Origin: a bacterium
Lineage (GTDB): Bacteria > Vulcanimicrobiota > JABDET01
Assembly (NCBI GenBank): GCA_021800275.1
Contig: JAJYZB010000004.1
Location: 147,634 to 211,633, forward strand
Length of the DNA stretch: 64,000 nucleotides
Direction of reading: 5' to 3'
Part shown: one piece after another, positions 3,465-8,092 of the stretch
Layout: every line of letters starts with the position of its first letter
Position numbering within the stretch: the stretch's first letter is position 1
The notes under the pieces: model-generated
Databases searched by the model: none
What the model saw: only the letters and a program-made list of their open reading frames with translations
Told to the model about the DNA's origin: nothing
Position numbers and translations under genes: made by a program

Positions 3465-4394
3465 ATGAAAAAAATTGCTCTTTATGTGCTGCTGACATTA
3501 CTCCTGAGCTTTTGGTGGGTGATTCCAAGATTCAGCCAGGCAAATGGAAACCACCCCTTACTCCTCTCTTTCGGGAAACCAGGGTCAAAGCAGGGAGAAA
3601 TGGCGCTTCCTTACGGAATTGCCGTGGGAACAGATGGACTTCTCTATGTTACCGATCTCGTCAATAATCGAATTGACATTTTTAATCAAGAAGGAAAATT
3701 TTTGCGATCCTTTGGACGACAAGGAACAAAACCTGGAGAATTCTTAGGCCCAGAAGGTATCGCATGCTCTACTTCTGGGAATGTTTATGTGGCAGAACCA
3801 GAAATGAATCGAATTCAAATTTTTTCTAGCCATGGAAAATTTCTAAACGTATGGAATAAAATGGGGAGCAAACCTGGAGAATTTTATCATCCTAGTCAGA
3901 TCGCCATCTCTAAAAATGGAATGATTTATCTGGCAGATACAGGAAACAATCGAATTGAAGAGTTCACTCCTACGGGAAAGTTTATCAGAGCATTCGGCAA
4001 ATATGGAATGAATAATGGAGAGTTTGAACACCCTACTTTTCTAGCTTTTTCACCCTCAGGCGATCTCCTGGTTGTGGATATGGAAAATGATCGGATTCAG
4101 ATTTTTTCACCGAATGGAACTTTTATTTCCAGCTTTGGACAAATAGGATTTCAATCAGGAGATTTCAATAACCCTGCTGGTATTACAGTGAATTTAAATC
4201 ATAAAATCTACGTTGTTGACAGCGGAAATAACAGAATTGAAGAATTCAATCTGGATGGAACTTTTTTAAGCGAGTGGGGTAAAAAGGGGAAAGAAAAGGG
4301 AGAATTCAATAACCCAACTGGAATTGCAGTCAACTCAAATGGGGATGTTTTCGTCGTGAATTCTGGCAGCGATCAAATTGAAAAATTCAAGTAA
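3465..4394 (+). CDS. Secreted NHL-repeat beta-propeller protein
   Basis: A 309-residue protein with an N-terminal signal peptide (about residues 1-26, KK followed by a leucine-rich core and cleavage near SQANG). The rest is a run of six repeats of about 46 residues, each with the pattern FGxxGxxxGEFxxPxGIAV...GxxYVxDxxNNRIxxF, typical of NHL repeats forming a six-bladed propeller. Such proteins usually bind ligands or act as extracytoplasmic scaffolds; no catalytic residues can be inferred. It starts 11 bases after glnA and its 3' end overlaps the 3' end of the convergent HD-GYP gene by 8 bases. The match between repeat number and blade number suggests a complete domain. Confidence 0.85.
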   Translation: MKKIALYVLLTLLLSFWWVIPRFSQANGNHPLLLSFGKPGSKQGEMALPYGIAVGTDGLLYVTDLVNNRIDIFNQEGKFLRSFGRQGTKPGEFLGPEGIACSTSGNVYVAEPEMNRIQIFSSHGKFLNVWNKMGSKPGEFYHPSQIAISKNGMIYLADTGNNRIEEFTPTGKFIRAFGKYGMNNGEFEHPTFLAFSPSGDLLVVDMENDRIQIFSPNGTFISSFGQIGFQSGDFNNPAGITVNLNHKIYVVDSGNNRIEEFNLDGTFLSEWGKKGKEKGEFNNPTGIAVNSNGDVFVVNSGSDQIEKFK

Positions 4395-6243
4395 TCCCTC
4401 TTTCAAAATCTTTTGACCGCTTATCCAAAAGCCTTTTCACCGTTTCCTGGCCCGTCTTCTTTTGAACACCAATTTCTTCTTCTTTAATTCCAAGAAGGAC
4501 AGAATAAGGCAGATTTCCTTTTGCAATCACCACTTCTAGAGCAGATACGATATCAGGATCGAACTGAGAGCCTGCTCTTTCCCGAATTTGAAGCAGAGCT
4601 GCTGGCCACTCCATTCCTGCGGTTAAACAAGAAAAAAAAGCTTCTGCAGTTCCTAAAATCCGCGCCTCCACAGGAGCTAATGAGTCTCCTTCTTTATGCC
4701 ATTCATGATGAGTCCACAAAATTTTAACTGCCTCCTCACTCGTAGGGAAATCCTGTCTCAATCCATCTGTAATCCCAATATGCTCTCTGTAATCCACCTG
4801 CCACCAGAAAGAACTAGATTCTCCCGGTTTGGCAAAGATATCAGATGGAGGATTCACCTCATGCATTATAACGGCTTCATGCAGATCATCCATTTGGGAC
4901 GCCAGAAGTCTTTGCTCAATTCCTAGGGACTGAGCAATAATCCAGAGGGGAGGGGCAAAATCAAAAGGTTCTGGTTCCTCTTCTTCAAGATAAAGGAAAA
5001 GAGCTTTTACAACTTCTGGATCAAACTGTATTCCTCTCCCCATCCACATTCTTCTCAGAGCCACTTCTTTCAGGAGCCTTTTTCTGTACGGTTTATCGCT
5101 GGTCATGGCATCATACGCATCTGCAGCACAAACAATCCTGGCAGATAAAGGAATATCCTCTTTTTTAAGTCCTGCAGGATAGCCCCTGCCATCCCATCTC
5201 TCATGATGAAATTTTGCGGAAAATAATTCGGGTTTAAATTCCGTAAAAGGCCTTAGAAATTCAGCCGTATGGACAGGATGCTGCTTTATTACTGCCCATT
5301 CCCAGGGTGAGAGAATGCCGGGTTTAAAAAGAGTACTATCAGGAATCGCAATGGTTCCAAGGTCATGGATTAAACCAATTTCCTGAATTTCATTCGCCTT
5401 TTCCGAAGAAAGTCCCATTTTTAAAGAAATCTCTTTGGAATAATTAGCCACTCTTACAGAATGATTATACCCCCCAGGATCGCTGGATTCAATCGCTTTC
5501 AACAAAACCTGGATTAATTTTGAAAAATCAGTCATGGTTTTTACATAGGACTCTGAACTAAAAGCAAAAATGCCGATTGGAAATACCATTAGAGTTGCAG
5601 CAAAAGGAACTTTTAAGAAAAGAACAGCTAATATAGCTCCTAAAAAGGTAGAAGCTAAATCTTCAAAATGAGCTTGATCAGGAATAGAGCGTAAAAGATC
5701 CAAAATTCCTATTCTTTTTTTAGAAAACTGAAGAAGTGCAGCATTAAAAGTGTGGACCCCACTGACAACAATCCAGACCAGAGCAAGGATTGGGAATATA
5801 AGCCATCCTTTTTCAGAAATTGCTTGTTCCAGATTTCCTTTCACAAAAAAATGAAAAACAAGGCTTCCAATTCCGAAACTAATTGTAAACAAACAAGTGT
5901 TCAAAAGTATCCATTTTTTAGCTTTAAATTTCCCTAAGAATGAAAAAGAAAGCTCTAGAGAAAAAGACAAAAGGGCAGCAAACCAGATCAGAGCCGGAAA
6001 AGGAAAAGCAAATAAAACAAAATAGAGAATCACATCTGAAAGAGAAAGCCACAGAGTTCTTCCAGAATTTACAGGAATTAATTTCTGACCGGATAAAACA
6101 CCCAGAATAAAGAAAAAAACTAAAATTGGAAAGTCTTTCTGATCTAAATAAAAAGAAAAACTGGTAATCCACAGGAAATATCCTGCTGCCAGTAAAAGCA
6201 AATAAAAATAAGCCCCTGAAATATATTTCTGGACTTTAATCAT
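4387..6243 (-). CDS. Membrane HD-GYP domain protein, probable cyclic-di-GMP phosphodiesterase, with a degenerate second half-domain
   Basis: With the ATG at 6243 it is 618 residues. About 250 N-terminal residues form 7-8 transmembrane segments, followed by an HD-GYP domain with H261, the HD pair 293-294, HH at 346-347 and GYP at 354-356; all expected metal ligands are present, so c-di-GMP hydrolysis is plausible. After a linker, residues 512-575 repeat the second half of the domain in decayed form: HHEWHKEG, then EARILGTAEAFFSCLTA and GSQFDPDIVSALE match HHERWDGRG, SARIVCAADAYDAMTS and GIQFDPEVVKAL of the first copy but lack GYP. A longer reading starting at TTG 6321 runs through a large inverted repeat and is less likely. 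Its stop overlaps the NHL-repeat gene. Confidence 0.85.
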   Translation of the reverse strand: MIKVQKYISGAYFYLLLLAAGYFLWITSFSFYLDQKDFPILVFFFILGVLSGQKLIPVNSGRTLWLSLSDVILYFVLFAFPFPALIWFAALLSFSLELSFSFLGKFKAKKWILLNTCLFTISFGIGSLVFHFFVKGNLEQAISEKGWLIFPILALVWIVVSGVHTFNAALLQFSKKRIGILDLLRSIPDQAHFEDLASTFLGAILAVLFLKVPFAATLMVFPIGIFAFSSESYVKTMTDFSKLIQVLLKAIESSDPGGYNHSVRVANYSKEISLKMGLSSEKANEIQEIGLIHDLGTIAIPDSTLFKPGILSPWEWAVIKQHPVHTAEFLRPFTEFKPELFSAKFHHERWDGRGYPAGLKKEDIPLSARIVCAADAYDAMTSDKPYRKRLLKEVALRRMWMGRGIQFDPEVVKALFLYLEEEEPEPFDFAPPLWIIAQSLGIEQRLLASQMDDLHEAVIMHEVNPPSDIFAKPGESSSFWWQVDYREHIGITDGLRQDFPTSEEAVKILWTHHEWHKEGDSLAPVEARILGTAEAFFSCLTAGMEWPAALLQIRERAGSQFDPDIVSALEVVIAKGNLPYSVLLGIKEEEIGVQKKTGQETVKRLLDKRSKDFERGIT

Positions 6244-6276
6244 ATTAAAACTCTTTATGTTAAACCTTTGAAATGC

Positions 6277-6334
6277 CCCTCTTCGAAAAACATCCCCCTT
6301 CGAAGAAAGGGGATGTTTCAAACTTCGAAGAGGG
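6277..6334. repeat. Long inverted repeat (two-part hairpin) with three TTCGAA cores
   Basis: Outer arms 6277-6287 and 6324-6334 are 11-base perfect complements (CCCTCTTCGAA / TTCGAAGAGGG). Inner arms 6288-6297 and 6309-6318 are 10-base perfect complements (AAACATCCCC / GGGGATGTTT). The two stems stack, with a 5-base bulge on one side, and the 11-base loop holds a third TTCGAA. It lies after the stop of the 55-residue gene and before the HD-GYP start, both on the minus strand. It could be a terminator or attenuator without a T-run, or a mobile hairpin repeat. Confidence 0.85.
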
Positions 6335-6353: not shown

Positions 6354-6521
6354 CTATCCTTCGCCAATACGAACCGGATCATGATTATGAGCCGCTCCCT
6401 GGGCGCTTATATGAGCCGCTCCCTGGGCGCTCATAGGAGCAATTCTCGCTTCTAAAACCTCTACTTTTAGAGAATAAACCTCTCTTTTCCCTTCCTGTTG
6501 AATCTTAACATCTTTGTTCAT
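6354..6521 (-). CDS. Small 55-residue protein with duplicated octapeptide, function unknown
   Basis: Found by translating the gap between the HD-GYP and GAF genes. From the ATG at 6521 it encodes 55 residues: MNKDVKIQQEGKREVYSLK, then VEVLEARIAP, then MSAQGAAHISAQGAAHNHD and PVRIGEG. An AAAGGGG Shine-Dalgarno lies about 9 bases upstream, which favours this ATG over the in-frame ATG at 6530. The C-terminal half holds a perfect-phase 24-base duplication giving two copies of (I/M)SAQGAAH. I do not know the family. The VLEARIAP segment resembles short LEPR-type motifs near the N-termini of some surface proteins, and the overall look (charged front, repeated small-residue tail) could also suit a modified peptide precursor; both ideas are speculative. 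Confidence 0.6.
   Translation of the reverse strand: MNKDVKIQQEGKREVYSLKVEVLEARIAPMSAQGAAHISAQGAAHNHDPVRIGEG
6387..6434. repeat. 24-base tandem duplication inside the small gene
   Basis: Two head-to-tail 24-base units (6387-6410 and 6411-6434), ATGAGCCGCTCCCTGGGCGC followed by TTAT or TCAT, differing at one base. Because 24 is a multiple of three, the duplication keeps the reading frame of the minus-strand gene and adds one octapeptide. Confidence 0.93.
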
Positions 6522-6619
6522 CAGATCCATCCCCTTTCTTTAAATTTTTATTTTTATGTTAACCTAATTATATCATGGAAAGGGATAAAGTTCAAGTAAC
6601 CACCAGGAGTAGAGATTAT

Positions 6620-6660
6620 CTATCCAAAAGGAGTATTTTTACCCTCCTCCTTTTGGATAG
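6620..6660. terminator. Perfect 14-bp inverted repeat at the 3' end of the GAF gene, possible terminator
   Basis: Arms CTATCCAAAAGGAG (6620-6633) and CTCCTTTTGGATAG (6647-6660) are perfectly complementary around a 13-base loop. The left arm contains the stop codon of the minus-strand GAF gene and the hairpin encodes its last 13 residues. There is no T-run after it on the minus strand, so an intrinsic terminator is possible but not clear; mRNA 3'-end protection or a regulator site are alternatives. Confidence 0.6.
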
Positions 6661-8092
6661 GTCCTCCCTTATCCAGGGCTAAACTAGTCAAAACTCCAAG
6701 AGTGCTGGAAAATCGTATCTCTTCTTCTGAGAAACTGCGGGGGTGGGAATCACACATTAAAATTCCTCCTAAAATCTTCTCTTGAATCAACAGAGGGACA
6801 GCCAGCATGGCTAAAAATCTCCCATGCCTATTCTCTTTTTCACTGACTAAAGGGTTTTTTGAAAGATCTCGAATCATAAGAACCTCTTTTTTAATGACAG
6901 ACTGTGAGATAGCCCCTTCTCCCCATGCCAATTTGATCCCCAGGAGTTCCTCTTGAAAAGCGGCCGTTGAAAGAAATGGATAAAACTCCTTTTTCCCAGA
7001 ATCAAACAAAAACAGGGTCCATTCCTGGAGGTTTAAAATTTGAACCGCATATCCAGCAATTAAATGCAAAAGGTCTTCAAGCCCCAGGGAAGAGGTTAGG
7101 GCTGAGGAACAAGCAGCAAAAGCTTCCAATTCCCTTGTCAAGTTCTGCTTTTGTCCTGTCCAGGCTCCTTTTGCAAGCACCAGGTCAGAATATCTGGCAA
7201 AAAGAGAGAGAAGGTCCAGCTGCGAAGAAGAAAAAGAGCTGGTCAGTGTTGAACCACAGACAATCCCTCCTTTAAACTCCTCATTTTTCCCGATTGGGTA
7301 ACACGCGGCGCTGGCAGGACAAAGTCCTTCTTCTTTTAAAGAAGCATATCTTAAATCAAAACTCAAATCATCTGCCACAAAAGGTTTCCCATTTTTTGCC
7401 ACTAACTCCAAAGAAGCAGACATTAATTCTAAGAGCTTATCTTTTATTTTTTCGAAAACCACCCCTGAAGAAACCTGAAAAACAATCTTTTCTGTTTCTG
7501 CATTCCACAAATAAAGGGTTCCAAATTCCGTTCCTAAAAATGCAGTCGCTTTTTCTACTAACCACTGCAGCACTTTTTTCTGATCTTCCCTCTCTTCCAA
7601 CAGGCCTCCAAGCTCCTCCAGAATAGAAGCTCTTTTGACTGCTCCTGCAGCTTTATCCAGTACTGGAGTTGTCATGGAAAGCAGGGCTAACAAGAAAAAA
7701 CTAGTTGCTAAAAGCTCCTGCCACTGGCCATAGAGAGTTTTCTGGGCTAGCGCGCCTAAAACCACAGATAGAGAGGATATTCCCCAGAGTAAAACCCCGC
7801 CATAAAACCCAAAGCTTTCCACGATTGAAATCATAGGAAATGAAGCGAACAATAGAGCTGCCCACGAAAAATTCCCCAGAAATAAAATTGGAATCAGGGC
7901 AGCTGTCTGAAAAAAAGGAGCCACTATCAAAGTCCATGAGGGCATTTTCGGAGAAAAACTCGCTGCTTGCAGCAGAAACCCCAGTCCCAAAAATCCCCAG
8001 AAAACTTGAGCATAAGGGAAATGAGCTAAATGGTAAAGTCCCCATAAAGCTAGAACTGGATAATACAGGAGCTGCAAGACCTGCATATCCAA
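6620..8092 (-). CDS. Membrane protein with two GAF domains, no output domain
   Basis: A 490-residue protein. The first ~145 residues are hydrophobic and hold about six transmembrane segments. Two GAF domains follow, about residues 165-310 (ending in the FKGGIVCGS strand) and 330-480 (with GEGAISQSVIKKEVLMIRDL and AVPLLIQEKILGGILMCDS). GAF domains bind small ligands or mediate dimerisation; no kinase, GGDEF, HD or DNA-binding output follows, so it may work with a partner, possibly the HD-GYP protein encoded downstream on the same strand. Its last codons coincide with a 14-base-pair perfect inverted repeat (6620-6660). The first Met at 8092 is used; Met3 is an equal alternative. Confidence 0.78.
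   Translation of the reverse strand: MDMQVLQLLYYPVLALWGLYHLAHFPYAQVFWGFLGLGFLLQAASFSPKMPSWTLIVAPFFQTAALIPILFLGNFSWAALLFASFPMISIVESFGFYGGVLLWGISSLSVVLGALAQKTLYGQWQELLATSFFLLALLSMTTPVLDKAAGAVKRASILEELGGLLEEREDQKKVLQWLVEKATAFLGTEFGTLYLWNAETEKIVFQVSSGVVFEKIKDKLLELMSASLELVAKNGKPFVADDLSFDLRYASLKEEGLCPASAACYPIGKNEEFKGGIVCGSTLTSSFSSSQLDLLSLFARYSDLVLAKGAWTGQKQNLTRELEAFAACSSALTSSLGLEDLLHLIAGYAVQILNLQEWTLFLFDSGKKEFYPFLSTAAFQEELLGIKLAWGEGAISQSVIKKEVLMIRDLSKNPLVSEKENRHGRFLAMLAVPLLIQEKILGGILMCDSHPRSFSEEEIRFSSTLGVLTSLALDKGGPIQKEEGKNTPFG

Follow-up and report, generated by a model that had tools for sequence, protein, structure and literature searches.

YydF epipeptides are made from a precursor of about 50 aa and are matured by an M50-type protease (YydH/LiaK, NF058609). 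In daptides (MpaA/DapA; MpaP/DapP), which also derive from short precursors, often several per genome, an RRE is fused to a site-2 protease and the leader carries the motif ELExMEAP (PMC10036551). In daptide products the cut falls behind the ELExxxxx motif, and Leu(-7) and Met(-4) of the daptide motif are required for the first modification step, via the RRE of MpaB (PMC10036551, PMC12338566). LEPR-XLL proteins (NF012209) have an N-terminus that reads xEALEPRxLL and are encoded beside PqqD-M50-HlyD proteins. An M50/HlyD/SecA_DEAD module has been described as a secretion system, and the parts of that paper drawn on here name no substrate tag for it (Kamneva et al. 2015, PMC4452313). Here we describe a small, unannotated gene with clear partners, from a little-studied phylum, whose product may work like the daptide and LEPR-XLL systems and by definition belongs to neither.

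The gene lies on the minus strand of the window, by which we mean the whole 64-kb stretch of DNA analysed and to whose numbering all positions refer. It occupies 6354..6521, with the ATG at 6521 and the TAG at 6356-6354; a second possible in-frame ATG is found upstream at 6530. The original prediction of a hidden 55-residue gene with a good Shine-Dalgarno sequence and an in-phase 24-base duplication, set in a 376-base gap between an HD-GYP gene and a GAF gene, was borne out in each of these respects. The gap between the HD-GYP gene (4387..6243, minus strand) and the GAF gene (6620..8092, minus strand) measures exactly 376 bp, AAAGGGG stands 9 nt 5' of the ATG, and the two tandem copies of the duplication are 23/24 identical and keep the frame. 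Translation of 6521-6354 gives MNKDVKIQQEGKREVYSLKVEVLEARIAPMSAQGAAHISAQGAAHNHDPVRIGEG. Residues 1-29 (6435..6521) form a putative leader that ends in VEVLEARIAP (residues 20-29, at 6464-6435), a motif of the RRE-recognition or cleavage type. The rest, MSAQGAAHISAQGAAHNHDPVRIGEG (6357..6434), is the predicted released tail, on the assumption that release follows RIAP as in daptide processing. It contains the octapeptide repeats SAQGAAHI and SAQGAAHN (6384..6431) and ends in GEG. A regular expression for the tag had a single match in a six-frame translation of the window (128,000 residues), and this was the 55-residue peptide. One copy of the gene is present in the window's own genome (G000); a second match to the motif pattern there (L030) runs antisense to another gene and was rejected as chance. 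No model in Pfam or NCBIfam matched the peptide, and a literature search with the letters of the motif returned only unrelated words.

The sister species of the same genus (G001) encodes a 55-residue peptide that is 80% identical, keeps the motif, ends in GDG and occupies the same position in the same gene order (NHL - HD-GYP - peptide - GAF). The two ORFs align gap-free to a common end codon, with gaps present outside the ORF, and their 29 nucleotide differences fall 3, 6 and 20 by codon position. Synonymous changes affect 18 of 35 sites and non-synonymous changes 11 of 130 (Fisher p 8.6e-8), which is not the random pattern that the original prediction had set against its own claim. The dN/dS of the peptide (Nei-Gojobori) is 0.10, similar to the HD-GYP (0.12) and GAF (0.14) genes. 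Across residues 23-49 (LEARIAPMSAQGAAHISAQGAAHNHDP), which include part of the motif and both repeats, we counted nine synonymous codon changes and no non-synonymous one. Conservation of an N-terminal half with a varying number of repeats had been expected; instead, both species have exactly two copies, the repeats differ between them only synonymously, and no part of the peptide is better conserved than the repeat region, which exceeds the N-terminal third in this respect. The SAQGAAH tail was seen in these two species only. The intact, gap-free frame in G001, the third-position bias and the low dN/dS indicate that the gene is more than chance, and strongly support a real coding sequence under purifying selection. 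A functionless chance frame, to which the short length and the silence of the family libraries might point, is already contradicted by the dN/dS, the Fisher test (p 9e-8, rounded), the conserved position and the distant homologues described below, and we regard it as extremely improbable.

The start, the Shine-Dalgarno sequence, the promoter and a strong 3' hairpin are all conserved between the window and G001. A sigma-70-like promoter (TTGAAC-17-TATAAT, with an extended -10 TG) is positioned at 6567..6595 on the minus strand, and TTGAGA-17-TATGAT stands at the equivalent place in G001. Between the peptide and HD-GYP genes, folding and a terminator scan revealed a strong terminator- or attenuator-like hairpin (6276..6334, minus strand); the 3' region folds with -40.6 kcal/mol in the window and -31.4 in G001. 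The Shine-Dalgarno region AAGAAAGGGGATG (6528..6540, minus strand) is complementary over 13 nt to 6303-6315, a possible attenuator or remnant inverted repeat, and the pairing survives in G001, where one pair has changed on both sides (A-U to U-A) and another has gone from G-C to G-U. On one reading of these features, the peptide frame is a leader ORF: its translation would govern read-through into the HD-GYP gene, with the Shine-Dalgarno region pairing with the terminator arm. The perfect complementarity, equalled by 0 of 500 shuffles when only Watson-Crick pairs are counted, the two-sided change in G001 and the strong hairpin ahead of the HD-GYP gene would fit such a design. However, 83 of 500 shuffles equal the window once G-U pairs are allowed, the comparison covers two species only, selection acts on the amino acids of the motif and repeats, and homologous peptides elsewhere stand behind riboswitches and in tandem. 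We consider the leader ORF improbable. A separate 14-bp hairpin (CTATCCAAAAGGAG / CTCCTTTTGGATAG; 6632-6672, minus strand), largely retained in G001, is formed by the final codons of the GAF gene.

A profile search for relatives of the peptide covered 149 genomes of the phylum, mostly drafts. About ten were found in G004 (GenBank name Armatimonadetes bacterium NC_groundwater_316_Ag_B-0.1um_55_8), a distant member of the window's phylum, and at least nine of these have the same motif and different tails. The G004 peptides consist of a charged leader, the motif [VIL]ExxExRI[AT]P and a variable tail that mostly ends aromatic-x-R (for example KKKYEFEVEEMEERIAPRKGSADDVGGQDGGTFWR, KKKYSFELEELEERIAPKRPTGDGSGKISCFWR and LYVEELETRVVPAKPVPTSDGGDDGWYYYR). 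G007 encodes a shorter relative that also keeps the motif (MKKEKKLKNIPLKNIPFKKEIKLGIEKLEERITPTPLFKRKY), with a weak profile match (E 0.28) and no clear Shine-Dalgarno sequence. It was admitted by eye as a weak match before the protease search described below, and its membership was supported afterwards by a protease gene 2.3 kb away. It was the only ORF retained among the weak matches; L051, L052, L053, L055 and others were rejected (E 0.007-0.3), being contained in longer frames or not shaped like the peptide. A kingdom-wide scan returned 360 pattern matches, among which only G004's own contig passed confirmation, and searches of plasmids and phages with the peptide queries gave nothing meaningful. 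One G004 peptide (L044:9098-9253, motif FELEELEERIAP) showed a weak, sub-threshold match (E 0.046) to NF033737, the model of the ammosamide/lymphostin RiPP leader, which is another scaffold-peptide leader.

A PqqD-M50 protein was first noticed near the peptides of G007 and of G004 contig C210. In the 149 genomes, a profile built from two sequences found a close PqqD-M50 protein (E < 1e-80) in exactly G000, G001, G004 and G007, the next best match being at 7e-25. These are exactly the four peptide-bearing genomes (4/149). The hypergeometric probability of this match by chance within the one phylum is 5e-8 if the genomes are treated as unstructured and 2e-5 if counted by genus (3/70). M50 signatures (HExxH and NLNPxxKLDGYY) are readable in the protease alignment. 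Pfam identified PqqD, M50 and HlyD domains in the G004 protein; PqqD fell just below the cut-off in G001 and had no match in G000. The HlyD domain is fused to the protease in G000, G001 and G004 and is absent from the G007 protease. The best NCBIfam match is the daptide biosynthesis intramembrane metalloprotease NF041824 (E 3e-54 to 6e-60), to which the 877-aa G000 protein scores 197 bits (E 4e-58), below the 300-bit equivalog cut-off. Homology to the YydH/LiaK protease is weak (NF058609, E 4e-16 to 6e-13, best 6e-17). Thus, although epipeptides also combine a short precursor with an M50-type maturation protease, the protease here is closer to that of the daptides. By eye, no counterpart of the daptide enzymes DapC, DapD and DapM was obvious near the protease gene in G000 and G001. 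The interval that separates the peptide from the PqqD-M50 gene in G007 contains kbl and tdh homologues (L095:2577-4848), which probably represent ordinary threonine catabolism; threonine is also a substrate of daptide enzymes.

Comparison of the motifs (KVEVLEARIAP in the window, LQELEVLEAP in a daptide leader, KMEALEPRFLL in an LEPR-XLL signal) shows a resemblance of the window motif to each of the other two. VEVLEARIAP and the daptide ELExMEAP are both hydrophobic-acidic and end in AP. They have [VL][ED]x[LM]E and AP in common but are not identical, the window motif having three extra residues (x-R-I) before AP. The spacing of V20-E-V-L23-E, two hydrophobic residues and then E, is that of the daptides, with ARIAP following. 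The invariant C-terminal Thr that is converted to Dmp in daptides is missing from the window, G001 and G004 peptides, and the fused HlyD domain of three of the four proteases is a further difference from the daptide protease. The daptide DUF-RRE protein DapB/MpaB (NF041823) had no match in the four genomes, although this model was silent in the control genomes as well. Because of the missing Thr, we do not regard the peptide as a daptide. An association with c-di-GMP, which we describe below, was not encountered for daptides in PMC10036551 or PMC12338566.

The peptide is not an LEPR-XLL protein either, since NF012209 does not match it and the genomes here have a single SecA and not the second SecA of the LEPR-XLL module; M50-HlyD itself is present in the window's genome. 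LEPR-XLL substrates are also giant (27-49 kb genes), compared with 55 residues here. The LEPR-like motif of the original prediction thus stands as a resemblance to signals that adjoin RRE-M50 proteases, and not as a match to the family model. In a related reading, the peptide would be a small surface protein, anchored or sorted by an LEPR-like signal, with a structural or metal-binding role (two AAH repeats, HNHD) and no part in signaling. The resemblance to LEPR-XLL N-termini found beside PqqD-M50 proteins and the conservation of the His-containing repeats speak for it; the failed model match, the lack of a second SecA and the absence of His repeats from the tails of the relatives speak against it, and we judge it unlikely.

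A search of plasmid proteins with the G000 protease found relatives in both settings, beside Streptomyces daptide precursors (LQELEVLEAPGFW) and, for more distant relatives, beside giant alphaproteobacterial LEPR-XLL proteins (KMEALEPRFLLSAD, HFEALEPRLLLSAD and LDPMEPRVLLSAD). On the alphaproteobacterial plasmids L118, L121 and L124, HlyD adaptors and PqqD-M50 genes come after giant LEPR-XLL-type genes, and are often accompanied by DUF3467 and by a SecA-like gene of the DEAD/DEAH type. This arrangement suggests that a PqqD-type RRE reads the LEPR-XLL tag. The PqqD-type RRE may recognize an [x]ExLE tag in daptides, LEPR-XLL proteins and the present peptides alike, and in the last of these the tag would cause a small peptide to be cut and exported. 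If this is right, it offers a testable idea of how giant surface proteins are recognized: the adjoining M50-HlyD proteins would read their LEPR-XLL tags through the PqqD-type RRE.

The acidic-hydrophobic motif of the leader, the presence of a dedicated RRE-M50 protease in each genome that has the peptide and the exact match of the two in 4/149 genomes place it in a working group of RRE-M50-processed exported peptides, as a variant with predicted cleavage. We favor, with a probability of roughly 60%, a ribosomal precursor peptide that is processed and exported in a manner tied to c-di-GMP. The leader, with its terminal [VIL]ExLExRIAP motif, would be bound by the PqqD-type RRE of the M50-HlyD protein (G000:C10:40116-42749), the M50 (site-2) intramembrane protease would cut near RIAP, and the tail would then be released through the HlyD arm. 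Several points count against this reading: the protease gene is unlinked to the window in G000 and not adjacent to the peptide gene in G001 either, its match to the daptide protease stays below the equivalog cut-off, the motif is short and is not ELExMEAP, the G007 peptide is a weak match, the window and G001 peptides have no riboswitch, and the SAQGAAH tail is limited to two species. The original prediction had also raised a peptide-modification precursor. The daptide-like leader and the restriction of the close RRE-M50 protein to peptide-bearing genomes agree with a precursor, but no modification enzyme was identified, and any further modification is conjectural. If the favored reading is right, these peptides extend RRE/M50 maturation by a further family and tie it to c-di-GMP, a messenger not usually connected with the making of ribosomal peptides.

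In G004 the connection to c-di-GMP is direct. Rfam places c-di-GMP-II riboswitches directly upstream of four of its peptides, and these are all four such riboswitches in that genome. Three are RF01786 (E 6e-12 to 8e-11) and one is RF03169 (E 1e-4), all passing the gathering score. The riboswitches end about 40-47 nt before the peptide start codon, and their 3' side runs into a U tract in the fashion of a terminator. The four G004 peptides fit the regulons of the c-di-GMP-II riboswitch (RF01786), whereas no RF01786 or RF03169 aptamer was found near the window gene and the G001 peptide is likewise without one; outside G004 the link is positional. The only other c-di-GMP-II match in the 149 genomes is in G002, from the window's own family. 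It lies between NHL and an isocitrate-dehydrogenase-like gene (L098:326-412, contig C38), the interval that holds HD-GYP, peptide and GAF in G001, and is followed 3' by about 200 nt and then a terminator-like hairpin; no recognizable LExR peptide was found behind it. Our literature search found no description of c-di-GMP-II riboswitches before small LEPR- or daptide-like peptides. Neither the riboswitch nor the RRE-M50-HlyD link was among the expectations of the original prediction.

The genes flanking the peptide form the positional part of this link. Directly downstream, the HD-GYP protein has an N-terminal TM region, an intact HD-GYP domain with readable signature residues (HD, HHExxDGxGYP) and a degenerate HD domain; directly upstream is a membrane protein with two GAF domains and a G001 orthologue. 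Both assignments agree with Pfam, which reports HD-GYP-type HD domains for the downstream protein and two GAF domains for the upstream one. The peptide is immediately upstream of a TM-HD-GYP gene in the window, in G001 and on G004 contigs C210 and C264. The C210 HD-GYP protein is 34% identical over 598 aa to that of the window and has a GAF-GAF homologue nearby, and the gene on C264 has a related TM-HD-GYP domain. On contig C331 of G004, peptides precede membrane GAF-GGDEF and GAF-SpoIIE genes, singly or in tandem. No LExR peptide was found upstream of the other TM-HD-GYP homologues examined in the phylum. The adjacency could be coincidental co-inheritance within family f1, though it recurs in family f3. 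Since the relatives are governed by riboswitches and the genes stand beside membrane HD-GYP/GGDEF/SpoIIE proteins, the peptide system appears functionally tied to c-di-GMP, and the placement of relatives beneath or beside c-di-GMP genes points to an undescribed family of c-di-GMP-linked secreted peptides.

This arrangement also invites the more specific reading of a peptide-sensing circuit, in which the exported tail would be an autoinducer for the neighboring membrane HD-GYP, GGDEF or SpoIIE protein, so that signaling between cells would set c-di-GMP, and c-di-GMP would feed back via the riboswitches on the synthesis of the peptide. A variable tail behind a conserved leader, the gene-by-gene pairing with membrane signaling proteins and the riboswitch control resemble a pheromone-receptor arrangement. 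However, the HD-GYP partners and the GGDEF/SpoIIE partners show no detectable homology between their TM regions, some peptides stand in tandem before a single receptor, and the riboswitch-led G004 peptide L044:667-807 (+) has no receptor directly downstream. We regard the circuit as a rather doubtful proposal. Similarly speculative is the broadest version, in which c-di-GMP-wired peptide signaling would combine cutting and export by PqqD-M50-HlyD, sensing by neighboring proteins and riboswitch switching in some lineages, and in which LEPR-XLL proteins, daptides and these peptides would all have their [x]ExLE tag read by RRE-M50 proteases.

Other small sequences were observed next to membrane HD-GYP genes. 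G003, a genome without a PqqD-M50 protein, has a 24-aa ORF (MIEYREKIHELPPWVRQLGWFDDW; L081/L097, about 770-845) upstream of an HD-GYP homologue, with a Shine-Dalgarno sequence and promoter-like and terminator-like sequences; it is not of the same family as the window peptide. In G028 and G013 (L088 and L084), small Pro/Gly-rich proteins that end in GPGAGGGYLVPPTDDTVSLSDAARSKK or hold GPGSGGGYGILGTKDGSV stop just before other membrane HD-GYP genes. Finally, on G004 contig C210 (L045:7700-8420), tandem copies of TTTCTCCTCCCTCTGGGAGGAG(T/C)TAGAGGAGGGTACCCAATCCTTACTCCA lie between the peptide and HD-GYP genes.
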